The notes beneath the pieces are model-generated. The model was given only the letters and a program-made list of their open reading frames with translations, made no database searches and was not told the origin of the DNA. Shown here piece by piece: positions 7,005-42,097 of a DNA stretch of 64,000 nt (position 1 is the first letter of the stretch; each line of letters opens with the position of its first letter). Both the position numbers and the translations under genes were made by a program. This DNA is from Gammaproteobacteria bacterium (GTDB lineage: Bacteria; Pseudomonadota; Gammaproteobacteria; Pseudomonadales; Azotimanducaceae), in assembly GCA_026707735.1 (NCBI GenBank), contig JAPOWH010000007.1:124001-188000 (forward strand). The letters are read 5' to 3'.

Positions 7005-9008
7005 TCAAACCATCTCTGGCAGAGGGTTGAGCACCTTCTTTACCCGGAACTTGAACCGTTTGTTGGGACGCAACTTGGGAAAGGGGTCAATCTTGAGCTT
7101 GTAGTTCTTTGGAACCATTTCCAATTCCAAGTGATGAACAAACAAGAGCACGTCCAGGCTCAACTGAAGCTCAACAAATCGCTGACCCAGACAAGTGTGT
7201 GTGCCCACACCAAATGGCCGGTACGCTCCTGGCTTCTTGTGTTCGTTTCTTGGGGGCAAGTACCGGTCTATGTCAAACTTCAACGGATCCTTGAAGTTCT
7301 CGTCTAGATAGTGAGAGGCCGTGTAAGCCAGAAGGCAGTCCGTTCCAGCTGGCACTTCGTAACCCTCTATGATCTCGGCGTTCATGACATGTCGATTGTG
7401 CACTGGAATCACGCAATACATGCGCATGACCTCCATGACGAAGCGGAGAGCCACATCTATATTGACATCTCGAAGCATGTCATGCGTCGGATAGCCATCC
7501 TTGAATACACGAGCCGCTTCCTCCCGCAATTGCTCGACAATTTCGGGTTCCGTTAGAAGCGAATAGACACCGAAGCTAAGAGCCGCACCACAATAGTGTC
7601 CAGCAATCAGGGCAGCGATGAAGCTAAACCCAATGTCCGTTTCCGGCAAGTATTGGGGATCATCGGCATGCAGGTCTAGTATGTCGTCGACAAAGTCTCG
7701 GCGTTTGCCTTCACGAAGCGCGGGCGAGTGAGTGCTGTGTATGGTTGCATACAACTCTAGCAGCCGTTGCCGTTTCTTATTCATTCTTGGAGTACGAGTC
7801 ATGAATTTTGGCAGGATCTTGTAGATGTTTACAAGCAGTGCTCGAGTCTCCAACTCGTAAAGATCGTCGAAATATCCAGTAATGTCGCTGCTGGTCGAGA
7901 GTCTGCTGATTTGTTCGCCCACCATGGTTTGACACACGTACTCTCCAGCCAATACGTCGCCCTTAGCCCACTCGGTTGCGTGCTTTCCAAAAACTTGAAA
8001 TAGCTCTTCAACTCGATCCTCTACCACGACCCTGGCAGTGCCGTCACGCATGACTTTGCGCATTCGGTAGTGCTCGGCGCCATCCATGCTTGCAACCGAA
8101 CGACTTACACCCCAGTCCTTCTGAAAATCCTCCAAATACTCCTTGCAACGGAGAAACAGTCGGCCGCGACGATGCACCATCGCGTTCAACTCGGCTCCGC
8201 TAAGCACATATGCATTTCTGCCAGGAGCATCTAAGCGTGCTATCGGCCCCAATTTCTCGTGTTGCTCCGCGAAGAAAAGCGTCAAGTTCCCTGACCAAAC
8301 GGCACGTGAGGTTAAAAAGTCCCAAAGCTTTATCCGGGGAGGATTCCGTCGAGGAGCAACCTTAGCTGTAACTGGAGATTTGAAGGTCGCTTGCACTGCC
8401 ACCGCAAGAGATTGGCCTATGAGATCCATACGGGCCAACAGCTCAATGCGCTCTTGTACTTGCTCGTACTCTTCGTTTTCCAATAGCGACGAAAAAATTT
8501 CGCAGGAATTGAGCAGAGATATGATGGAAATTTCCCGAGGATCCGGTATTTCATCACTGTGAATGATGTTGTAGATGTGTCGCTTCACATCGTGAAAAGT
8601 ATCTTCCGAGCCTGCCTCTTTGGATTTCTTCTTTCGCGACAGGACCCAGAACCCGGCTTCATCGACCTCCAAAATACCGCGATTGCTTAGGCGGTCCAAC
8701 GAGTTCTGCATCAGCTCTTCGGCGCCTAGAGCTATCTTTTCCACCCAGAACTGAACTGACCGTCCGGTATCCTTGGAAGCGGCAATTTCAGACAATGCCG
8801 GGTCAAGCAAATCGTCGCCCAAGGGCGTTGAATCCAAAAGCACGAGCGACTTAAGATCAGTGTCGATTCGATTTGCCAGCGCCAAGTCCATGAGCACCGC
8901 GCCCGCCGCGACGCACGACATGCGCCAATGGGAGAGGGGCTCAAAATACCCGGTGTCCTCATTGAGCAACATCAACGTCACTTCTTCAAGGAATGTAATC
9001 TGAGACAT
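7005..9008 (-). CDS. GPP34 (GOLPH3/Vps74-like) domain - cytochrome P450 fusion
   Basis: A 667-residue protein made of two recognisable parts. Residues about 3-210 match the GPP34 fold of eukaryotic GOLPH3/Vps74: ITFLEEVTLMLLNEDTGYF, then AGAVLMDLALANRI, then DDLLDPALSEI, and at the end ALLARMDL with a final hydrophobic helix. Residues about 225-655 are a P450: ExxR in the K helix (MEVMRMY), the heme loop FGVGTHTCLGQ with its Cys near residue 606, and an I helix reading IAGHYCGAAL. GPP34 proteins bind acidic phosphoinositides or membranes in eukaryotes, so I infer that this domain places the P450 on the membrane. The I helix lacks the usual acid-Thr pair. The substrate is unknown; the I helix is nearest in pattern to CYP51 (AGxxxS). 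The gene is divergent from the small ORF and Rieske pair. GGGG lies just upstream of the ATG. Confidence 0.88.
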   Translation of the reverse strand: MSQITFLEEVTLMLLNEDTGYFEPLSHWRMSCVAAGAVLMDLALANRIDTDLKSLVLLDSTPLGDDLLDPALSEIAASKDTGRSVQFWVEKIALGAEELMQNSLDRLSNRGILEVDEAGFWVLSRKKKSKEAGSEDTFHDVKRHIYNIIHSDEIPDPREISIISLLNSCEIFSSLLENEEYEQVQERIELLARMDLIGQSLAVAVQATFKSPVTAKVAPRRNPPRIKLWDFLTSRAVWSGNLTLFFAEQHEKLGPIARLDAPGRNAYVLSGAELNAMVHRRGRLFLRCKEYLEDFQKDWGVSRSVASMDGAEHYRMRKVMRDGTARVVVEDRVEELFQVFGKHATEWAKGDVLAGEYVCQTMVGEQISRLSTSSDITGYFDDLYELETRALLVNIYKILPKFMTRTPRMNKKRQRLLELYATIHSTHSPALREGKRRDFVDDILDLHADDPQYLPETDIGFSFIAALIAGHYCGAALSFGVYSLLTEPEIVEQLREEAARVFKDGYPTHDMLRDVNIDVALRFVMEVMRMYCVIPVHNRHVMNAEIIEGYEVPAGTDCLLAYTASHYLDENFKDPLKFDIDRYLPPRNEHKKPGAYRPFGVGTHTCLGQRFVELQLSLDVLLFVHHLELEMVPKNYKLKIDPFPKLRPNKRFKFRVKKVLNPLPEMV

Positions 9009-9322: not shown

Positions 9323-9592
9323 ATGCATTCAATTAAGTTTACGAAACTCACTCAGAACTTATGCAACCTCGCTGACTGGTCGCAATTCGAGAGACACCTC
9401 GCAGCAACTGAAAACCAAGAGTTGCTCTTAAAATATGAACTAGCATATGGGGATTCTTTGAGCTGTGAGGTAGCTAGACTCTCAAGCGAGGATTGTCCTT
9501 TCTTACAAGAGGTTTTTCTCCAATTCAATAGCTCTCTGGCCTCCTGTGTGCTTCGTTTGTTCCCATCCAGTGGATCTGAATTGTTGGAATGA
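9323..9592 (+). CDS. Small protein of unknown function, translationally coupled to the Rieske oxygenase
   Basis: An 89-residue ORF that I do not recognise. It is rich in Leu, Ser and Glu, has scattered cysteines (NLC, SCEV, DCPF, SCVL) without the spacing of a ferredoxin, and shows no signal peptide or membrane segment. Its TGA overlaps the ATG of the Rieske oxygenase as ATGA, the pattern of coupled translation, which is the main reason to believe it is a gene. It could be an accessory or leader protein for the oxygenase. No strong ribosome binding site is visible before its ATG. Confidence 0.5.
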   Translation: MHSIKFTKLTQNLCNLADWSQFERHLAATENQELLLKYELAYGDSLSCEVARLSSEDCPFLQEVFLQFNSSLASCVLRLFPSSGSELLE

Positions 9593-10605
9593 AAGAGCCT
9601 GATCAACGCCGGTTTCCATTTTCGCCCTTTCCAATCGGGTGGTATTGGGTTGAATTCAGCGAGAACGTCAAAAAAGGCCAACTGCAGAGCAAGACTTGGC
9701 TGGGACAGCGAACGGTGTATTGGCGTGACGACCATGGAAAGGTTTGCCTTGCGAACGCGATGTGTCCCCATCTGGGCGCGAATTTGTCACCATCATTCGG
9801 TGGCAAGCTCGAAGAGGGTCTGCTAGTCTGTCCTTTTCATGGGCTCAGATACAACACAACGGGCCAATGCGTGCACTCCCCTGTTGGTGAACTCAGTCGC
9901 CCGGTATCTTTGAAAACCTTTCCGGTCTGTGAAACGGGAGGGGTAATCTTCGCCTACTGGCATCCCGAAGGACTCGAACCCGAGTGGTCTGTGCCGGATC
10001 TCGACGATGGAGATTGGTCGCGATTTGTCTATTCTGCTCGAGAGATTCGTACGCATCCTCAGGAAACGTCGGAAAATGGAGTAGACATCACCCACCTTCC
10101 CTATGTGCATGGCTACTCAAATGTCGAAAGCCTTGAGCCACTGCACATAGACGGACATTACCTGCGAAATCGATTCAGGTTGACGCGTCTTGTAGGCCCT
10201 TCCAAGCACTTATGCATGAAGCTTGACGTTCATGCGACCGTGAGCATGTGGGGCGTCGGGTACTCGATGATCGAGCCTGTCATGCAAGATGCTGGCCTCT
10301 ACATCCGTCAATTGGCTCTGTGCACGCCCATCGATGGAGAGAAAGTGAATTTTGTCATGGCCATGCAGATGAAGGACGTTGAGAGGCCGAATGTGCTCAT
10401 GCCAGGTCTTGGATTGATGCCAAAGCGACTGCTCAATGCACTCCTTCTGAAGATTTTCTTCAAAGTCTATGTGCAGGACATTTCACAGGACTTTGACATT
10501 TGGGAGAACAAGCAATATCTAATCTATCCCAGACTTGATGCCAGCGAGAGCTCCATCATCCACTTTAGACGTTATTGCGAACAGTTCTACACTTCCGTCG
10601 AATAG
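9589..10605 (+). CDS. Rieske non-heme iron oxygenase, KshA / DAF-36 (Neverland)-like
   Basis: Single-polypeptide Rieske oxygenase (338 residues). The Rieske 2Fe-2S ligands are C59, H61, C81 and H84 in CPHLGAN and CPFHGLRY. The mononuclear iron site is the helix ENGVDITHLPYVHG (N163, D166, H169, H174). The opening FPIGWYWVEF and the spacing of motifs resemble bacterial 3-ketosteroid 9-alpha-hydroxylase oxygenase (KshA) and the animal cholesterol 7-desaturases DAF-36/Neverland, all of which act on sterols. The actual substrate is unknown. The enzyme needs a ferredoxin or flavin reductase, and none is encoded next to it. It overlaps the small ORF upstream by four bases and converges on the RND pump gene. 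Confidence 0.88.
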   Translation: MKEPDQRRFPFSPFPIGWYWVEFSENVKKGQLQSKTWLGQRTVYWRDDHGKVCLANAMCPHLGANLSPSFGGKLEEGLLVCPFHGLRYNTTGQCVHSPVGELSRPVSLKTFPVCETGGVIFAYWHPEGLEPEWSVPDLDDGDWSRFVYSAREIRTHPQETSENGVDITHLPYVHGYSNVESLEPLHIDGHYLRNRFRLTRLVGPSKHLCMKLDVHATVSMWGVGYSMIEPVMQDAGLYIRQLALCTPIDGEKVNFVMAMQMKDVERPNVLMPGLGLMPKRLLNALLLKIFFKVYVQDISQDFDIWENKQYLIYPRLDASESSIIHFRRYCEQFYTSVE

Positions 10606-10655: not shown

Positions 10656-13600
10656 CTATGCCGTGGTCTCTGTAGCAGGCTGCGAACGACGTCTGGGCAA
10701 TCGAACCGCGGGCAAGCGTCCTCCCACCGCACGGATCCAACCTTTGAGTTGCGTCGGTAGCGCAAGCAACGCAGGGGTCACGATAAGAGTAAGAACCGTT
10801 GCAAAGCTCAATCCGAACAGAATCGCTTGAGAAAGGGGTACCCAATACGCTGACACGGGACCGCCGAATATCCATTTGCGATTCACAAAGTCGATTGAGT
10901 TATCTGTGGCAAGCGGCAGGATCCCAATAATCGTCGTTCCTGTCGTGATGAGCACCGGACGAAGTCGCTGTAGACCCGTCAGGACAATGATCTCCCGAAC
11001 GTCGCGATTTGGGTTGTCTCGAACGCCGGCATTAAACGTGTCAATGAGAACAATGTTGTTGTTCACCACTATTCCAGCGAGAGTCAATACCCCAATGCCG
11101 CTCAAGATCACACTGAACGGTGCGCCCGTAATCGCTAGACCAAGAAACACACCCGCAGTCGATAGCACGATTGCCAACATGGTGAGCAGCGGATGGTAGA
11201 AGTTGTTGTAGTGAAGCACCAGCAACACAAACATCAATAGCAACGCAAACGAAAATGCTTTGGAAAGATAGGCTTGCGATTCCTCCTGCTCTTCGTTTGT
11301 GCCTCGGAATCGGATATTCACCCTGCTATCGAAGTTCTGCGCGTCGATCCAGCTCTGAATCTCCCTAACTTTGGTGTCGGAAAGAACTCCTGGAGCCACG
11401 GCAGCACGAATCATGTGCATGTTGGACTGATCGCGTCTCTGTAACGCGTCCGATTTGATATGTGGGGTTCGTTCAACAAACTGAGACATGGGCACAGATC
11501 CCAGGGACGTTGTCACTTCGAGATCGTCAAGCGTGTCCAATCCTCGAGCGTAACTTGGGTAGCGAACTCGTATGTCCAGCGCATCCTCGGCGTCGTCGGG
11601 TCGATACTCGCCCAACTTCACTCCGGTCGTCAGCAATTGGGTTGCCAATCCAACGGTAGTAACGTCCGCACCGAAAAAGGCAGCTTGCGCCCGGTCTACG
11701 GTCAATTGCCATTCGATGGCTCCCAAGGGCAACGTGTCCTCGAGATCGCGAATCCCTTCGACCTGTTCCTTCATGTATTCGCGCACTTGGAAGACAATTG
11801 GCTCGAGAACGTTCCGGTCTTCGCCCGTGAACTGAATGGCTATAGGCTTTCCTGCAGTCAGCGTGCCGTGGAATGGCACAACTTCCACGATGATTCCACT
11901 GACTTGCGACGTCCGCTCCCGAATCTCTTCAAGTATGTCGTCCCCCGATCTCTCTCGCTCATCTGACGGCACCATCTCGATAAAGAACACGCCAACCACA
12001 TCGGAACTTCCTCCTCCGGAAAACTCCGTTCGGGTTCCCTCGGTTTGCCCGAATCCAGCCGTTGACATCATGTTGATGTTTTCCAATCCGACGACCTGTA
12101 TAAGTTGGTGTTCAACCTGCGACACCAAACTATAGGCTTCGTCGGCACTCAGGTTGCCCTGTGCGCGAACAAACATGTTGGCCCATTGTGGTTCGTTTTC
12201 ATTGAAGAAAATCACACCTGTCCCATGAGATGCATGAAATGCAAAAATCCCATAGACCGCTGCCAGTGCAACAACGACCGTTACAGCGGCGTGCTTGACG
12301 GCAAATGACAGAGTCTTCACATACCACCGCTTGAATCCCTTGAGTAGCGAGAGATCCAAGTTCCACATCAATTGAACGGATTGCTTGGAATCCACTCTCC
12401 CGGGTCTGTTTCCCATGAGAAGGTTTCCAAACGCTGGAGCCATGAAAAGCGCGTACAGAAGAGCTCCCACCATGACGAGGAACACCGTCTTGGGAAGGTA
12501 TCCCATGAATGCGCCGGCAGTACCCGGCCAGAAGAGCAGTGGAAAGAAAACTGCCAGAGTTGTAGAGGTGGAAGTTATTACTGGACGGGCCATGCGCGTC
12601 GCAGCAGAGCTGTAGGCCTCCGCGCTGGCCACTCCGTCGGCGAGACGGCGGTCTGCGTCCTCTGTTATGACAATGACGCCATCAATGAGCATCCCAAGTC
12701 CGAGGAGCATTCCAAACATGACCATGAAGTTGAATGATTGGCCTGCAAGCCACAGAAAAATCAAGGCGAACAGGAATGCAACGGGGATGGCTGTTCCAAC
12801 CACTATGCTCGTTCTGAAACCCATGGTTGCCAGGACCACGATCATCACGAGCACCAACGCAGTAATCATGTTGCCTTGAAGTTCAGTGACAAGCCGCTCG
12901 GCAAAGGACGCAAGGTTCGACGAGACAAACACTCGAACGCTGGAAGGCACGTCTTTTTGGAATTCGTCGACCAATTCCTCGACTTCCTTGGAGGTGTCAA
13001 TAAGAAATGCTTCCGGTCGGCGATACACGAACAGAGTGATGGATCGCTCGCCATTCGCATGGGAGTAGCTGACACGGTCCTTGAACGTCCGTCGAATGGT
13101 CGCAACATCACCAAGAGTCACCACCGTGTCCAGATTCGCAAAGATTGGTATGTCAAGCAAGTCCTCGGGGGCTTCAACGATGCTTGGAATGTTGATCGAA
13201 AGACTGCCCCGGCCCGAAAGTAGAGACCCAGCAGGTATCAAGCGGTTGTTTCTGTCGATGGATGCAATCAGTTGCTCGACGGAGAGTTGATACGCGTGCA
13301 TCTTGTTTGGGTCGATCGCAATCTCGAGGAATTCCTCTCGAGCGCCCTGCATGCTCACGCGCTGCACACTTGTCAGAGATTCGATTCGATCCTTGCATTC
13401 AAGGGCAGTGCGATATACGAGCTCTTCGGGTGCACCTTTGCTTACGAGGTTAACTTGAAGCACTCGACTGTTGTGTCCGCCAGTCTCCGTAATGATTGGT
13501 TCGTCTGTTGTGGCCGGAAAGTTTTGGCGAGCACGATTCACCGCTTCGCGAAGGTCGGCTTTCGCAGCGTCAATGGGAACGTGAGACTTGAACTCGATTC

Positions 13601-13877
13601 CAAGCACGGCCATATGCTCCGCGCCGGTGCCGCTAACTTCCTTAATGCCATCGACAGCCTTCAGCTCCACTTCGAGCGGAGCCACCAGCAAACGAAGAGC
13701 GTCGTCTGGAGATATGCCTTCGTGCGGTACGGTTACTGTAAATGTAGGTATATCGACCTTGGGTTCGTTCTCGACCGGTATCGCGAGCCTAGCCACGACC
13801 CCAAATACCAAAATAGTCAGCATGACGAGAAGCGTGGTTCGCGTATGACTAATCGCGAAATCTACGATTTTCTTCAT
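10656..13877 (-). CDS. RND efflux transporter, inner-membrane permease
   Basis: A 1073-residue proton-driven pump of the HAE/AcrB type: N-terminal TM1 (residues about 9-29), a large periplasmic loop, a TM2-6 block near 335-475, a second periplasmic loop, and TM8-12 near 870-1045. TM10 has LAGIVVNNNIVLIDTF as in AcrB. TM4 reads GLGMLIDGVIVITED, so only one of the two adjacent Asp residues of AcrB (D407/D408) is present. It lies 48 bases after its adaptor gene and is co-transcribed with it. No TolC-like outer-membrane partner is adjacent. The setting beside three oxygenases suggests export of a lipophilic product or toxicant; this is inference. Confidence 0.93.
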   Translation of the reverse strand: MKKIVDFAISHTRTTLLVMLTILVFGVVARLAIPVENEPKVDIPTFTVTVPHEGISPDDALRLLVAPLEVELKAVDGIKEVSGTGAEHMAVLGIEFKSHVPIDAAKADLREAVNRARQNFPATTDEPIITETGGHNSRVLQVNLVSKGAPEELVYRTALECKDRIESLTSVQRVSMQGAREEFLEIAIDPNKMHAYQLSVEQLIASIDRNNRLIPAGSLLSGRGSLSINIPSIVEAPEDLLDIPIFANLDTVVTLGDVATIRRTFKDRVSYSHANGERSITLFVYRRPEAFLIDTSKEVEELVDEFQKDVPSSVRVFVSSNLASFAERLVTELQGNMITALVLVMIVVLATMGFRTSIVVGTAIPVAFLFALIFLWLAGQSFNFMVMFGMLLGLGMLIDGVIVITEDADRRLADGVASAEAYSSAATRMARPVITSTSTTLAVFFPLLFWPGTAGAFMGYLPKTVFLVMVGALLYALFMAPAFGNLLMGNRPGRVDSKQSVQLMWNLDLSLLKGFKRWYVKTLSFAVKHAAVTVVVALAAVYGIFAFHASHGTGVIFFNENEPQWANMFVRAQGNLSADEAYSLVSQVEHQLIQVVGLENINMMSTAGFGQTEGTRTEFSGGGSSDVVGVFFIEMVPSDERERSGDDILEEIRERTSQVSGIIVEVVPFHGTLTAGKPIAIQFTGEDRNVLEPIVFQVREYMKEQVEGIRDLEDTLPLGAIEWQLTVDRAQAAFFGADVTTVGLATQLLTTGVKLGEYRPDDAEDALDIRVRYPSYARGLDTLDDLEVTTSLGSVPMSQFVERTPHIKSDALQRRDQSNMHMIRAAVAPGVLSDTKVREIQSWIDAQNFDSRVNIRFRGTNEEQEESQAYLSKAFSFALLLMFVLLVLHYNNFYHPLLTMLAIVLSTAGVFLGLAITGAPFSVILSGIGVLTLAGIVVNNNIVLIDTFNAGVRDNPNRDVREIIVLTGLQRLRPVLITTGTTIIGILPLATDNSIDFVNRKWIFGGPVSAYWVPLSQAILFGLSFATVLTLIVTPALLALPTQLKGWIRAVGGRLPAVRLPRRRSQPATETTA

Positions 13878-13925: not shown

Positions 13926-15011
13926 CTACTCAAAATCCACAGTCACCTGTTCGTCTTCGACGACAAGCCCCTGGCCCACGGTGATTATCGTTGCGATGTT
14001 GGGAAGCCCAGACACCCAAACTCCATCCATATCTTCCCGGACAATGTCGATTGAATGGAATTCGACCCTGTCGTCGCCGCCAACTGTCTTGACCCCCATC
14101 GAGCCCAAAGAATCAAGAACAATTGCTGATGTTGGGACTTTGTGGGCATTTCGGGTTCCTATCGTCAATTCAATCGTCGCGCTCATTCCTGAGCTCAGCG
14201 AATAGTCTTTGTTTTCGAGTGTGACTTCAATGCGAAAGGTTTTGGATTGCTCGTCTGCCTTCTTGCTCACAAAATCCAGTCGACCTGTACGCGATTCGCC
14301 GTTTGGCAAGCTCACCGTTGCGTTTGTGTCGAGAGAGAGCTGACCAATGTGCTCCTCTGCGACAAATCCCTGCGCATATAGTGGGTCCAACACGAGGATC
14401 GTTGCACAAGGAAGCCCTACATCAATGTATTCTCCAACATTGACATGCACTTCATCGATCACTCCAGCTATGGGAGCTCGAACCTTGGTGTTTTCCAATT
14501 CGATTTCCGCTGCTAGGAGACGCTGAGCTGAAGTGCTTTGCTGCAGTTTCTTGCGTCTGCTTTCCAACTCTTGCAAGAGATCCCGTTCCGTCAAGGTGCG
14601 AGAACTCTCGTATTCCTCATCTGCCAAGTCAAGTGCGTCGCGCGCTACGTCAACCCGAGCCTGACGGTCGACGAGGTCCAATTCACACAGAACATCGCCT
14701 TCTTCCACCCAGTCTCCAATTTCCACGTGGCGCGCCACAACCTGACCCCCCGTACGCGCTGGCACAGTTGCCTGATTACGATCTATGATGCGTCCCCTAA
14801 GCATGATGGTCTTTTCCTGTTCGGTAGCAGTGCTTCGCTTGGCACGAATCAACACCGAACTAGCTTCGCTTGCCGCATCGTCTTGAAGCTCGTTGGCTTT
14901 AGCAAGCGAGATCAAGGGGTCCGAGGGAGGCTGAGCGAGTATCCCCGTGAGCAGCCAACCTGCGACAATGAGGACAACTATCGCTAATGAAAGGATTCTG
15001 GTCTTGTTCAA
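13926..15011 (-). CDS. RND periplasmic adaptor (membrane fusion protein)
   Basis: 361 residues: an N-terminal membrane anchor or signal (about 5-27), a lipoyl/barrel-sandwich half (GRIIDRNQATVPARTGGQV), an alpha-hairpin (about 115-165), the second lipoyl half (KVRAPIAGVIDEVHVNVGEY), and beta-barrel and membrane-proximal domains (FVAEEHIGQLS onwards). The adaptor bridges the inner-membrane pump and an outer-membrane channel. The first codon is TTG at 15011, preceded by GGGAG at good spacing. It is the first gene of the adaptor-permease pair and is divergent from the BVMO gene. Confidence 0.93.
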   Translation of the reverse strand: MNKTRILSLAIVVLIVAGWLLTGILAQPPSDPLISLAKANELQDDAASEASSVLIRAKRSTATEQEKTIMLRGRIIDRNQATVPARTGGQVVARHVEIGDWVEEGDVLCELDLVDRQARVDVARDALDLADEEYESSRTLTERDLLQELESRRKKLQQSTSAQRLLAAEIELENTKVRAPIAGVIDEVHVNVGEYIDVGLPCATILVLDPLYAQGFVAEEHIGQLSLDTNATVSLPNGESRTGRLDFVSKKADEQSKTFRIEVTLENKDYSLSSGMSATIELTIGTRNAHKVPTSAIVLDSLGSMGVKTVGGDDRVEFHSIDIVREDMDGVWVSGLPNIATIITVGQGLVVEDEQVTVDFE

Positions 15012-15274: not shown

Positions 15275-17230
15275 ATGCAACACGGGGCTGACATGAGGCT
15301 AAGCGACGATCTTCTCGGTGCAACGGATGATGAAATCAGAGAGTGTTTGACGCACGCTCACATTCCGGCGCTCATGTGTTCGCTAGTCCACATGACGGGA
15401 GACTTTGAGCTCATACGCGGCGAAATTCGACCACACGCTGTGCCCATGGGCAACCCGAACCAGTCACTATCAGAAGAGGAACGGCAAAGAATTCAGGATG
15501 TGGCGTTCGAAGCGATTCGCAGCTATCGCGATGGATGTCAAAGAGCTCAATCCTTGGATCCTCAACACGTTTCAGAGATGATCGAGTTCATTACCGGAGA
15601 GGAACTTTCACACGAATACACGCAGTTTGCCCTATCCGAGCTTTCGATCGATGGACGAGACACGTACGCGGTCGAAGGATTCGAATCCATTCCAGAAACT
15701 GTGCGAAAAGACTTTCGGGTTGCTGTGGTTGGTGCGGGTATGTCTGGCATCTTGGCCGCAATCAGGCTCAAGAAAGCGGGAATCCCCTACGTCGTGCTGG
15801 AGAAAAATTCTGATGTAGGTGGCACTTGGTTCGAAAACCGCTACCCCGGTTGCCGCGTTGACAGTCCCAACCACGTGTATTCGTACTCGTTCGCGCCCAA
15901 GGACTGGCCGCAGCACTTTTCAGATCAGGAAGTCTTGCTTAGTTACTTCAAGGATGTCGCTGAGCAATACGACGTTCGACCCAACATACGCTTCAACACC
16001 GAAGTAGAAAACATGCGTTGGATCAACGAAAAGGACTGCTGGCAAATCTACCTACGGTCGCCAGAGGGAGACTCGCAACTAGAAGCCAATGCCGTTATCG
16101 TGGCAGTGGGGCAGCTCAATCGACCTAAACTACCCGATTTGCCCGGACGAGACGATTTTCGAGGCAAGAGCTTTCATTCTGCAGAATGGGACAGCTCGGC
16201 AGATCTTTCCGATAAACGAGTGGCGATTATCGGCACTGGGGCATCAGCCTTTCAATTCACTCCCCATGTAGTACGCCAAAGTAAGCAGGTGGATGTCTAT
16301 TTAAGGACGCCGCCGTGGGTGGCAGTAAACCCTCTCTACCAAGCCTATATCACGCAAGAAAAGCATTGGCTGTTGAAATGCATTCCTTTCTACGCCGCTT
16401 GGTTCAGGTTCTCGATGTTTTGGACATCAGGAGAAGGTTTGTTGTCGATGGCGAGGTGCGACGCAACTTGGGACGGGAATTCCACCTCCGTCAGCGAAGC
16501 CAACGACAATTTACGGAAAGTGCTTACGCGAGGCATCGAGACCCAACTTGCTGATCGACCCGATTTAATTGCCAAGCTTACGCCAAACTATCCCCCTGCA
16601 TCGAAGCGCATGCTCATCGACGACGGCGAGTGGTACCGATCCTTGAAAGAGGAAAAAGTGTCGGTGATCGATGCCAAGATTGAACGAATTACAGAAACGG
16701 GTTTGGCGCTTTCCGACGGTTCAAAGAAAGACTACGACGTAATAGTTTTTGGAACTGGCTTCCAGGCTAGTCGCTTCTTCTATCCCATGCGAATCTACGG
16801 GATGGAAGGCACCGAGCTGCGCGAAAAATGGGGAGACGATCCTCGCGCCTATCGCGGGATTACGATCCCCAACTATCCCAATCTGTTCACTCTTTACGGG
16901 CCCAACACCAACATTGTTGTCAACGGAAGCATCATTTTCTTTTCCGAGTGCGAGATGGTCTACGTACTGAGTTGCTTGCGGCATTTGCTGCAATGCGGCC
17001 TCGCCTCGATGGACTGCAGACAGGAAGTTCACGACATCTACAACGTACACATTGATCGCGACAATCGCAATATGGCTTGGGGAGCTTCAACAGTAAATGC
17101 TTGGTACAAGAATCAACAAGGACGTGTCACACAATGTTGGCCGGGCACACTGATTGAATTCTGGAAACAGTGCAAAGACTTCAAGGAAGCCGACTACGAG
17201 TGGAGTCCGGTTAAAGCAGGTAGAGCTTAG
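15275..17230 (+). CDS. Baeyer-Villiger flavin monooxygenase, HAPMO (4-hydroxyacetophenone monooxygenase) type
   Basis: FAD- and NADPH-dependent enzyme that inserts oxygen next to a ketone. The type I BVMO signature FRGKSFHSAEWD (FxGxxxHxxxW) is at about 295-306, flanked by two Rossmann motifs, GAGMSG (about 153) and GTGASA (about 320). The N-terminal 110-residue extension (ECLTHAHIPALMCSLVHMTG) is characteristic of the 640-residue HAPMO subgroup, and KNSDVGGTWFENRYPGCRVD also matches that group. The start is either the ATG at 15275 or the one at 15293. The substrate could be an aryl ketone or a cyclic or steroid ketone. It faces parC convergently. Confidence 0.9.
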   Translation: MQHGADMRLSDDLLGATDDEIRECLTHAHIPALMCSLVHMTGDFELIRGEIRPHAVPMGNPNQSLSEEERQRIQDVAFEAIRSYRDGCQRAQSLDPQHVSEMIEFITGEELSHEYTQFALSELSIDGRDTYAVEGFESIPETVRKDFRVAVVGAGMSGILAAIRLKKAGIPYVVLEKNSDVGGTWFENRYPGCRVDSPNHVYSYSFAPKDWPQHFSDQEVLLSYFKDVAEQYDVRPNIRFNTEVENMRWINEKDCWQIYLRSPEGDSQLEANAVIVAVGQLNRPKLPDLPGRDDFRGKSFHSAEWDSSADLSDKRVAIIGTGASAFQFTPHVVRQSKQVDVYLRTPPWVAVNPLYQAYITQEKHWLLKCIPFYAAWFRFSMFWTSGEGLLSMARCDATWDGNSTSVSEANDNLRKVLTRGIETQLADRPDLIAKLTPNYPPASKRMLIDDGEWYRSLKEEKVSVIDAKIERITETGLALSDGSKKDYDVIVFGTGFQASRFFYPMRIYGMEGTELREKWGDDPRAYRGITIPNYPNLFTLYGPNTNIVVNGSIIFFSECEMVYVLSCLRHLLQCGLASMDCRQEVHDIYNVHIDRDNRNMAWGASTVNAWYKNQQGRVTQCWPGTLIEFWKQCKDFKEADYEWSPVKAGRA

Positions 17231-39234: not shown

Positions 39235-40650
39235 TCAAGCGGATTCTGTAGTTAGCACGTTGGTGTTTAGACAGTCCTGATAGTGGACAAATCGAACCCC
39301 ATCGACCACTAGGGTGCTCGAGTGGGGCAATTCCTCACTCCAAGTGTCCTCCTTGCCAACGAAGTACTTGGACCCTTTAGCCTTTCCCCAACGGTCCCCG
39401 TTGTAGCGCCGTACAAGAATCGTTCGACCCAGACGATTTACAAAAGCCTCAATCAGCACATCCGATTCTGTCGAACCCGGTTCAAATACCCGCATGCATT
39501 CGATGGATTCACGCCCTTCGCCAATGTCCAATCTGAACACCCCGTTACCGAACAAACGGGGCAACGCAGTAGTCGATGCAATAACACCTTCCGACGGCTC
39601 GTTCATATAGTTGACAATCGGCACGTTGCGTTTGCACACTCCGAAGTCGTGTTCCCAGCCCTCATCGAGAAACGTGTACAGAACGCGCTTTCCGTCGTTT
39701 TGTTCGCTTTCGTAGGCAATCCAATGCACATCTGTTTCTGTCAGACTTCCCCAAATCCTAAGACTCTTGTCCCCGATATGGGGCTGCAAGAAGCCTCGTC
39801 GATCGGAGTGTTCTTGTTCCGTTATGTCAATCTCAACGCAACTTCTTCCGTGAACCTCCGCGTTGCGATACGCATTCATCGAATGAAAACTCTTGAGCTT
39901 GAGGGACTTCCCTTCGTTTACGGCTTCAAAGATTGCCCATTGAACCGAATCACCGATTTGTGGGACGACAAACCACCAGGCCAACTCCCGCAAATCTATG
40001 GGAAGAGGTGTTGAATCAACCTTCGAGACTGATATCTGTGGTCGTGTCAACGGAAGGTCGTCGATATTTTCAATTTTAGGTTCCATGATGTTGGTCCTCA
40101 TTGGATTGGCGATGTTTAACTCATTGCGCACCATGTTTCGTCCATACGACAATCTACGCTTAATCGTTCCGGGTGTCGTCTGCTGCCTTTTGGCTATCTC
40201 ATTGATGGAAAACCCCTCGATATAGAAATCCGATAAAGCACTTCGCTCCTGCTCAGGGATGTACCTAAGTACATCGACGAATTCGTCCATGCGTTCACTG
40301 GATTCAGGAGCTCTGGGTCCACGGCGGTCCACAAAACGCTGAGGCGCTAGCACTTCACTCACCTTTCGAATCCTAGTCTTGGCTCGAATCCAATCGATAC
40401 ACCGATTTCGCGCTAATTGGTAAAGCCAAGGTCGAAAATTCCCGGGGGTTTCGCGAACCAGACTCGACCACGCCTGCAGCAGAGTGTCTTGAAGAATGTC
40501 CTCTACGTCGGCTTGTTCAGTAGTCTCAGTACGGTTTCGAATAATCGCTTGCAGGGGCTCCACATAGCGACGAATCAATAACTCGAACGATTCCTGGTGC
40601 CTGCATTCCAACACTCTCTGCAGTAGTTGCTCGTCTGATGGATTGCACAT
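39235..40650 (-). CDS. ECF-type RNA polymerase sigma factor with a ~285-residue C-terminal extension
   Basis: The N-terminal 180 residues are a normal ECF sigma factor: region 2 (ESFELLIRRYVEPLQA, DVEDILQDTLLQAWSSL, NFRPWLYQLARNRCIDWIR) and region 4 (LSDFYIEGFSINEIAKRQQTTPGTIKRRLSYGRNMVR). After a Pro-rich linker comes a 285-residue extension with no membrane segment and no SnoaL, TPR or WD-repeat pattern that I can recognise; it is rich in Trp and beta-like segments. The start is the ATG at 40650 (a TTG lies three codons upstream). No anti-sigma factor gene is adjacent, so the extension may itself be the control domain. Target genes are unknown. Confidence 0.85.
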   Translation of the reverse strand: MCNPSDEQLLQRVLECRHQESFELLIRRYVEPLQAIIRNRTETTEQADVEDILQDTLLQAWSSLVRETPGNFRPWLYQLARNRCIDWIRAKTRIRKVSEVLAPQRFVDRRGPRAPESSERMDEFVDVLRYIPEQERSALSDFYIEGFSINEIAKRQQTTPGTIKRRLSYGRNMVRNELNIANPMRTNIMEPKIENIDDLPLTRPQISVSKVDSTPLPIDLRELAWWFVVPQIGDSVQWAIFEAVNEGKSLKLKSFHSMNAYRNAEVHGRSCVEIDITEQEHSDRRGFLQPHIGDKSLRIWGSLTETDVHWIAYESEQNDGKRVLYTFLDEGWEHDFGVCKRNVPIVNYMNEPSEGVIASTTALPRLFGNGVFRLDIGEGRESIECMRVFEPGSTESDVLIEAFVNRLGRTILVRRYNGDRWGKAKGSKYFVGKEDTWSEELPHSSTLVVDGVRFVHYQDCLNTNVLTTESA

Positions 40651-40807
40651 GGTGAACAATGTTGAGTCGTCCTAGCAAACAGGGCGTGGGTCCACAAGAA
40701 AAGGTTCACAAAACCATGTAAACCTATGGTGCCAATGGCACGAATGTCTACCGGAGTTGCAGCGAAGTGGGAGCCGACACCAATGTTTGCCGGTCGCTAC
40801 GGTGTTT

Positions 40808-42097
40808 TCATCTTTCCTGTTCTACAACAAGATGCACTAGCAGCAAGACAAGTATCGGAAGGTTCTTGAGCAATCCCGCGTAGGGATCGGCCCAAAGAGA
40901 AGGCACCAATAAGCCCAACCCAACAGTGAATGCAAGTACCAGCCCAATCTGTACCCATGCCATGAAGCGCAGAAACAAACCAAACAGCAGCGACGCGCCT
41001 ATGGCCAGATTGATTGAACTAGCCACAATCGAAATTGACGCAACCCAGTTGCCCGGGACTAGCTGTCCAATCACGAGCTGATATAGGTAGGATGTCCCAA
41101 AGAGGCCGGCGATACCGGAAATCAACCAAAGCAAAGCGAGGCACATCCGAATTAACGGACGCAACAGGAAGAGCCTCGCATGCCACAGGTCCTGGCTCTC
41201 AGCTGGACGAGAGGCAAGAATTTCGGCAAGATTGACTGGCTTGACCCCGGTTACTTGCTCGTATTGACTTGCATTGCCAGTCATCGTCGATCGAAACTGG
41301 GCTACCGCCGTGGAGTTTATTGGATCCAAGTGGAACAGATCTCCAATACGGCCAAGAACGGCCGCGATCCAATTCGGAATGCCAAGTACCGGTCTCTTGG
41401 GCAATCCAAACCATCTGCGGTAGGCAGTTACCACCGCGTCCATCGGCAATTCCTCTGCAGCGGACGGTTCCAAGACAGTTTTATCACCGGCCTTTGTCTG
41501 TAAGAGCTCAACAATGCCAGCTGCTAGATCATTCTTGTGGATGATGCCTAGAGGAATCGATCCGTCGCCAATTACGGGAGTGACAATGGGGCTTACGGCA
41601 AGCGCACGAATCATCGAGGTTCCACCGTAAGAGCCATCGCCGACAACCAACACGGGGCGCAATATTGTCCAGTCCAAGTCTTTGCCGATTAGACATTCCT
41701 CTCCCGCGAGCTTCGTGCGCGAGTAGGTAGTCTGCGATTCAGTGACCCCTGTGGCGGAAACGTGAATAACTCGCTGGACTCCACGGTTCTCACACGCCGT
41801 ATAAAGTGCATTTGGGGCATCACGGTGAACATTCCAAGCGACCTGAGATCGTCGGGGTTGCAATACACCGGCAACGTACACGACTGCGTCAATGTCTTCA
41901 AGAAGAGATGACCAGTGATCCGCGTTTCGCGCAGCCTTCGATGTAAGGTCCAGTGACTCAACACCGCAACCTGGAAACCGGCGAGCAAACTTCGTTGAAC
42001 TACGAACAATGCAACGCGTTTCGTGGCCTGCCGCGTGCAGAGCAGTTACCACGGCGGTGCCAATGAATCCATTTGCACCGACTACAAGAACTCGCAT
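40808..42097 (-). CDS. SDR-type NAD(P)-binding protein fused to a DoxX-like membrane domain
   Basis: Residues 1-285 are an atypical short-chain dehydrogenase/epimerase: Rossmann motif VVGANGFIGTAVV at the N-terminus, an RVIHVSATG strand, and TYSRTKLAGEECL with the YxxxK pair replaced by a Ser/Lys arrangement as in NDUFA9-like SDRs. Residues about 305-429 hold four hydrophobic helices of a DoxX-like domain (LFLLRPLIRMCLALLWLISG onward). 429 residues in all. Fusions of this type are known in proteobacteria; the substrate is not. It stands alone upstream of the sigma-factor gene. Confidence 0.85.
   Translation of the reverse strand: MRVLVVGANGFIGTAVVTALHAAGHETRCIVRSSTKFARRFPGCGVESLDLTSKAARNADHWSSLLEDIDAVVYVAGVLQPRRSQVAWNVHRDAPNALYTACENRGVQRVIHVSATGVTESQTTYSRTKLAGEECLIGKDLDWTILRPVLVVGDGSYGGTSMIRALAVSPIVTPVIGDGSIPLGIIHKNDLAAGIVELLQTKAGDKTVLEPSAAEELPMDAVVTAYRRWFGLPKRPVLGIPNWIAAVLGRIGDLFHLDPINSTAVAQFRSTMTGNASQYEQVTGVKPVNLAEILASRPAESQDLWHARLFLLRPLIRMCLALLWLISGIAGLFGTSYLYQLVIGQLVPGNWVASISIVASSINLAIGASLLFGLFLRFMAWVQIGLVLAFTVGLGLLVPSLWADPYAGLLKNLPILVLLLVHLVVEQER

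Follow-up and report, generated by a model that had tools for sequence, protein, structure and literature searches.

In eukaryotes, the GPP34 protein GOLPH3 binds phosphatidylinositol 4-phosphate (PI4P) via W81, R90, R171 and R174 and inserts a hairpin formed by residues 190-201 into the membrane (PMC13408441, PMC12494035; these and all further papers are cited for the excerpts consulted). In bacteria, SCO4440, a stand-alone GPP34 protein of Streptomyces, is encoded beside a D-Ala-D-Ala carboxypeptidase and has been linked to peptidoglycan and wall-deficient cells (PMC12402492). Sterol clusters comprising ERG24, CYP51, a cyclase and sterol C24-methyltransferase (SMT) have been described from sponge-symbiotic bacteria of many phyla (PMC10070321, PMC9531527), and sdmAB is also present in the clusters of PMC10070321. 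Here we describe a gene that joins a GPP34 domain to a cytochrome P450 (GPP34-P450) in a 64,000-nucleotide stretch of an Azotimanducaceae genome (Gammaproteobacteria; assembly GCA_026707735.1, contig JAPOWH010000007.1, positions 124,001 to 188,000), hereafter the window. The fusion is about certain to be real and recurs in several phyla, its P450 mostly carries an altered I helix, and its setting makes a sterol-linked role probable.

An initial annotation of the window, made from the sequence without database searches, placed both domains in one open reading frame (ORF) at 7005-9008. These coordinates are correct and both domains exceed their Pfam cut-offs; the annotation named no strand, and the gene lies on the minus strand. 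The features of the locus are as follows.

7005..9008, minus strand: GPP34-P450 fusion gene, 667 amino acids, ATG start
8388..8987, minus strand: GPP34 domain, residues 8-207 (PF05719, E 5.2e-29; a profile of bacterial GPP34 domains matches GOLPH3)
8640..8651, minus strand: hydrophobic residues F120-W121-x-L123, within the stretch that aligns with the membrane hairpin of GOLPH3 (fusion conservation; alignment)
8304..8387, minus strand: linker between GPP34 and P450
7050..8303, minus strand: cytochrome P450 domain, residues 236-653 (PF00067, E 7.6e-44)
7593..7595, minus strand: Tyr472 of the I helix, at the expected place of AGx(E/D)T, with one residue deleted nearby
7422..7433, minus strand: ExxR motif, residues 526-529
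7191..7193, minus strand: haem-ligand Cys606

The N-terminal part scored 102.2 bits against PF05719 (gathering score 29.1; model positions 3-200 of 201), and the C-terminal part scored 150.7 bits against PF00067, likewise above the gathering score. The sequence blocks that had been aligned with human GOLPH3 were borne out by a phmmer match of the single domain to GOLPH3 3kn1 (E=0.002) and by a much stronger match of a profile of 18 bacterial GPP34 domains (9.3e-19, positions 2-197 of 209).

Joining of two separate genes by misassembly, which the initial annotation had named as grounds for abandoning the fusion, is excluded because the same genome encodes a second GPP34-P450 fusion (one of two further GPP34 genes, the other being stand-alone), full-length fusions are carried by relatives at the genus and family level, and 79 loci from named public metagenome-assembled genomes (MAGs) each hold both domains in one ORF. 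Within the window's family, 61 of 200 genomes contain a GPP34 match and translation of the locus confirmed the fusion in 43, with G233 (partial GPP34 match, 626-aa frame), G281 and G366 (shorter frames) counted as lacking it. In a phylum-wide sample, 14 of 398 genomes had a GPP34 match at E <= 0.001, nine of them over the cut-off, and among these nine a long-frame GPP34 was found in none but the window's own genome. The 79 loci are the best of at least 592 pattern matches and at least 330 relatives obtained by scanning genome contigs with residues 1-345 of 18 fusions; as these queries spanned both domains and were all of the Tyr type described below, the scan favours Tyr-type fusions, and the count attests existence only, being no measure of the frequency of unfused P450s or of the other type. 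The loci belong to Pseudomonadota (46), Acidobacteriota (19), Chloroflexota (5), Rhodothermota (3), Gemmatimonadota (2) and Latescibacterota (1), with three lacking a phylum. Merging them with the family set yields 107 distinct fusions. The span between residues 207 and 224 is 17 residues long in 90 of the 107. Ratios of nonsynonymous to synonymous substitution rates (dN/dS) are 0.02-0.06 in each domain for six close pairs with defined dS, of seven tried, the ratios being rough for three pairs, whose dS exceeds 1 in one domain or both. Purifying selection acts on both domains. The number of fusions from many assemblies, the near-constant linker and this selection led us to reject an assembly or annotation error, in favour of which nothing was found and whose probability is negligible. 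No GPP34 relative was found in viral contigs scanned with a single GPP34 sequence.

A P450 tree of 79 rows was built from 52 of the 107 fused and 27 unfused P450s (28 unfused loci given), rooted on the single CYP51 row L004 and containing long branches. All fused P450s fall on one side of one branch (support 92) and the Tyr type forms one clade (support 100). The Tyr type is likewise a single clade (support 98) in a GPP34 tree of 81 rows, several of them long-branched, in which one clade for all fused GPP34 domains is not rejected (approximately unbiased test, 0.515). It is very likely that we are dealing with one single fusion family maintained by selection. Within the Tyr clade the phyla are interleaved (10 label changes for 7 labels taken from titles, 46 rows), which points to horizontal transfer.

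The GPP34 domain of the fusions is homologous to GOLPH3, and a Trp equated with the PI4P-site W81 in one alignment, an uncertain equivalence, is retained in 103 of 107. The domain could on these grounds bind phosphoinositides as GOLPH3 does and take the P450 to host-derived PI4P membranes. Against this stand the arginines: by residue equivalences assigned by hand from the HMMER profile alignment, Arg occupies the R90 place in none of the 107 fusions and the R174 place in six, and the R171 place is Asp or Glu in 106 and never Arg. Since R90 is never Arg and R171 is replaced by an acidic residue nearly throughout, GOLPH3-like PI4P binding is not expected, and we reject this very improbable reading. 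In the region aligned to the GOLPH3 hairpin, F, W and L are conserved in 95, 96 and 97 of the 107 fusions, respectively, with L123 falling in an insertion. The mean net charge is -18 for the GPP34 domain, +5.7 for the linker region and +6.5 for the P450. Of the membrane-docking module for a hydrophobic substrate that the initial annotation had proposed, docking is kept as the best reading, probably by a route that does not involve PI4P; the setting described below points to sterols as the substrate, and the part that does not stand is PI4P binding in the manner of GOLPH3.

Residues 225-655 had been read as a complete P450 acting as a monooxygenase. Its completeness stands, with a PF00067 match and with no loss of the ExxR Glu and Arg or of the haem Cys in any of the 106 fusions reaching those columns. 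The motifs do not suggest an ordinary monooxygenase, since 100 of 106 have lost the I-helix acid-Thr pair, the usual route by which protons reach bound oxygen. These 100, the window fusion included, carry Tyr at window position 472 and lack the (A/G)Gx(D/E)T motif; the remaining six have the canonical Gx(E/D)T (Thr type) and, within the set collected, come from genomes of the window's family only, which scan bias may explain. Furthermore, the I-helix segment of the Tyr type is one residue shorter (38 vs 39), and a profile alignment to M. capsulatus CYP51 also contains a one-residue gap, a few residues further on. The alignments indicate the one-residue deletion firmly; they do not fix its exact place or the CYP51 residue that Tyr replaces. 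Tyr-type P450s that retain ExxR and Cys with such an I helix might be no monooxygenases at all, functioning instead as peroxide-driven enzymes, as isomerases or rearrangement enzymes, or as haem-based sterol-binding or sensing proteins that hand a sterol to the Rieske protein and the pump described below. Also in keeping with this, no ferredoxin or reductase partner was found among the ten neighbour-cluster representatives scanned, a set that does not amount to a genome-wide search. Purifying selection and intact haem motifs, however, would suit any haem enzyme, some working monooxygenases lack the acid-Thr pair, and the genes for P450 partner proteins often lie elsewhere. We regard a non-monooxygenase function as a substantial possibility, held at rather less than even weight.

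Among solved P450s, a profile search places M. capsulatus CYP51 (PDB 6mi0, 1.4e-37), a bacterial sterol demethylase, nearest to the fusions. The fused P450s neither group with CYP51 nor carry its I-helix HT, and in the unrooted tree a branch with 97% support joins the fusions and eight other unfused P450s to the exclusion of the CYP51 row.

At higher coordinates, the window encodes the following neighbours.

9589..10605, plus strand: KshA/SdmA-type Rieske oxygenase, divergent neighbour (KshA_C, 8.1e-23)
10656..13877, minus strand: AcrB-type resistance-nodulation-division (RND) permease (ACR_tran, 2.3e-150)
13926..15011, minus strand: RND periplasmic adaptor (TIGR01730, over cut-off)
15275..17230, plus strand: monooxygenase resembling flavin-containing (FMO)/Baeyer-Villiger enzymes, adjoining the adaptor; cluster membership uncertain

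The Rieske neighbour contains both a Rieske domain and a KshA-type C-terminal domain; its best PDB match is KshA, a 3-ketosteroid 9alpha-hydroxylase (1.7e-22), and it matches SdmA at 43.7 bits (1.7e-11), far under the equivalog cut-off of 600. The neighbourhood was counted in those 48 of the 79 fusion loci that span 19.9 kb or more, the 31 shorter ones being left out, with thresholds fixed before the count and after the locus maps had been inspected. Of these loci, 41 encode an RND permease, 27 an outer-membrane efflux channel (OEP) and 22 an SMT; a Sterol_MT_C domain (4e-14) was identified in the SMT of locus L103. A Rieske protein belonging to the same family as the window's is encoded in 32, at a median distance of 205 bp and in 21 cases within 600 bp. 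Reducing the set to a single locus for each 70% identity group leaves 17 (RND), 14 (Rieske), 12 (OEP) and 10 (SMT) of 21 (Fisher 1e-11 to 4e-6). None of the four was found in 20 control stretches of 20 kb from seven single-contig family genomes, which were hand-placed, 14 of them in genomes where no P450 fusion was confirmed, nor in 40 random stretches from eight fusion-bearing genomes (487 ORFs of 300 aa or more, no N, two overlapping pairs), also at looser thresholds. The Rieske/RND/SMT setting tracks the Tyr type: in the family set, RND, Rieske and SMT occur in 31, 12 and 18 of 43 Tyr-type loci and in none of the six Thr-type loci. The second fusion of the window's genome (L009:8177-10210, plus strand), which has a canonical AGLET I helix, has none of these neighbours.

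With KshA as the best solved match of the Rieske protein, the locus could instead serve steroid catabolism, the P450 opening the side chain as in sterol-degrading actinobacteria. SMT and export genes suit modification better, however, and no ring-cleavage gene was found among the same ten representatives, with no genome-wide search for catabolic genes made; we consider this reading improbable.

The window's genome also encodes sterol genes within one 18-kb stretch of another contig (L011). These include a squalene epoxidase-oxidosqualene cyclase in one ORF (L011:9184-12972, plus strand; TIGR03463 724 bits with a cut-off of 851, TIGR01787 over cut-off), a CYP51 separate from the fusion (2.5e-106 to M. 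capsulatus CYP51), squalene synthase, SMT, an ERG4/ERG24-family reductase, SdmB-like and SdmA-like proteins (296 and 406 bits, both below the cut-off of 600), and HMG-CoA reductase fused to mevalonate kinase (L011:2431-4821, plus strand). The fusion of epoxidation and cyclisation in one ORF may be shared by many relatives, as their long frames suggest. Across the 200 family genomes, a cyclase match is present in 27, 18 of them in the weaker, sterol-type class, and 17 of these 18 are among the 43 genomes with a confirmed fusion (Fisher 3.6e-12), the eighteenth (G366) having its GPP34 match in a shorter frame. As genomes are not independent, the fairer figure is that by genus, in which all four genera with a sterol-type cyclase carry the fusion, present in 6 of 37 genera (p 2e-4).

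Taken as a complete mechanism, we consider it slightly better than an even bet that the fusion is a membrane-docked, cytoplasmic, sterol-modifying haem enzyme coupled to export. The GPP34 domain would be a docking module resting on the inner membrane via its conserved hydrophobic hairpin region and holding the P450 where sterols partition, and its strongly acidic face might bind a basic partner. The P450 would oxidise a sterol in an unusual way, Tyr standing where the acid-Thr pair is normally found, and would work in sequence with the KshA/SdmA-type Rieske protein encoded next to it and, in many loci, with SMT. Export of the product would fall to the RND pump, adaptor and outer-membrane channel encoded alongside. 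The sterols may be made by the bacterium itself, for which the window's genome has the genes, or be acquired from the surrounding community or an animal host.

Several observations weigh against this mechanism, including the retained Trp, the high dS of three pairs and the lack of a redox partner among the scanned neighbours noted above. Docking is read from residue conservation in a sequence alignment, and both the hairpin and the I-helix gap might sit a few residues elsewhere. The true CYP51 of the same genome groups apart from the fused P450s, so that their match to CYP51 is one of resemblance and not of membership. No SMT was found in the 64-kb window or in the 14 kb before it, and the window's RND permease is by its Pfam match (ACR_tran) of the AcrB type and probably not of the HpnN/BstA type described for sterols. 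Moreover, 26 of the 43 family fusion genomes lack a sterol-type cyclase, and one (675 bits or more) was found in only 13 of the 45 fusion MAGs searched, which represent 46 of the 79 loci given and of which 28 have some match, the others being weaker. The fusion enzyme accordingly needs no sterol synthesis in the same cell. FMO, RND and P450 together could mean detoxification, and the AcrB-type annotation and the fusions without a sterol-type cyclase (26/43 family genomes, 32/45 MAGs) are what one would also expect if the P450, Rieske, RND and channel genes served to detoxify or export hydrophobic xenobiotics or a host metabolite. The steroid-type Rieske protein of the window, the SMT genes in 22 of 48 loci vs 0 of 60 controls and the fusion in 17 of 18 genomes with a sterol-type cyclase argue against a non-sterol substrate, which we consider unlikely, if well short of negligible.

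The isolate labels of fusion-bearing bacteria are consistent with sponge studies, such as the one listing species in PMC8163846, a lead suggesting that they may be sponge symbionts; three isolate labels sought gave no match among the papers listed. Extending the docked sterol-modifying enzyme to such hosts, we tentatively propose, as a conjecture with the balance against it, that the origin of GPP34, or its present use in bacteria, lies in a role as sterol-membrane adaptor. Sponge symbionts would share, by horizontal transfer, a module for sterol tailoring and export (GPP34-P450, Rieske, SMT, RND and channel) that uses GPP34 to dock a haem enzyme with new Tyr-based I-helix chemistry and that makes unusual sterols credited to the sponge.

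Bacterial GPP34, which the initial annotation described as known mainly from stand-alone proteins, is not only stand-alone, given the two fusion types in this family. In the second type, GPP34 is followed by a C-terminal multi-helix membrane domain (L107, L109, L110, L111, L113, L115, L116, L117, L118, L119 and L120; genera g3, g125 and g129). The membrane domain contains two H-x13-H pairs in 10 of 10 aligned proteins (L119 being outside the alignment), a spacing that we take to be that of di-haem cytochromes b, and in L107, L109, L110, L111, L116, L117 and L120 GPP34 is the sole Pfam family over cut-off. The long N-terminal parts of the L105, L106, L107, L109, L112, L114 and L062 ORFs look like read-through before the true start, and those scanned (L105, L106, L107, L109 and L112) had no Pfam match. 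Divergent from the stand-alone GPP34 gene of the window's genome lies a fatty-acid/sterol hydroxylase-type gene (L010:7658-8533, minus strand). No such gene was found beside 36 other stand-alone GPP34 genes (mostly 1.5-kb flanks; positive control run) or in 79 fusion loci, 26 unfused P450 loci, 11 membrane-fusion loci and 20 control stretches, and it was dropped as a second sterol link because it does not recur at the loci searched. Elsewhere, the window encodes an NAD(P)-binding epimerase-like protein with a C-terminal DoxX_3 domain (40811-42097, minus strand) and a 474-aa protein with ECF-type sigma factor regions, whose long C-terminal part has no Pfam match at E 1e-5 (39238-40659, minus strand).

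Among known systems, M. capsulatus CYP51 is reportedly a P450 fusion too, in that case with a ferredoxin. It resembles the fused P450 as its nearest solved chain by profile and differs in that the fused P450 has the I-helix HT replaced and GPP34 at its N-terminus. The sterol genes and BstABC of M. capsulatus resemble the fusion loci in that a transporter of the RND class accompanies sterol genes; the published description puts BstA near HpnN, whereas the fusion-locus RND is an ACR_tran protein with adaptor and OEP (PMC10942540). The sponge-symbiont clusters share ERG24, CYP51, cyclase and SMT with the window's genome (PMC10070321, PMC9531527). Within the excerpts consulted, the words 'P450' and 'Rieske' do not occur in PMC10070321, nor 'Golgi' in PMC9531527, where 'P450' appears once, in a reference title; the fusion is described in none of the excerpts from these two papers or from PMC10942540, and no paper on a GPP34-P450 protein was found in the open-access literature searched. 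As far as that literature shows, the parts are of known kinds and their combination and the I-helix change are new. They set apart a group of P450s in which the motif for oxygen activation changed a single time in the tree and was afterwards retained across phyla. They may also extend bacterial sterol clusters, which are relevant to where sponge sterols and sterane fossils come from, by a step of tailoring and export. Like the fusion, SCO4440 is a bacterial GPP34 protein, unlike it a stand-alone one, and its published phenotype overtakes the statement of the initial annotation that no role was known for such proteins (PMC12402492); the fusion offers a concrete, testable role for a bacterial GPP34 domain next to sterol enzymes. 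The fusion is like GOLPH3/Vps74 in its profile match over nearly the whole domain and in the hydrophobic residues of the hairpin region, and a Cys in 103 of 107 fusions lies near the S-acylated Cys84 of GOLPH3, an uncertain equivalence. It is unlike them in being bacterial, joined to an enzyme and without the PI4P arginines, and, as the protein begins at the GPP34 domain, in lacking GOLPH3's N-terminal coat-binding extension. It offers a point of comparison from prokaryotes for the origin of GOLPH3's sorting of membrane-bound enzymes.

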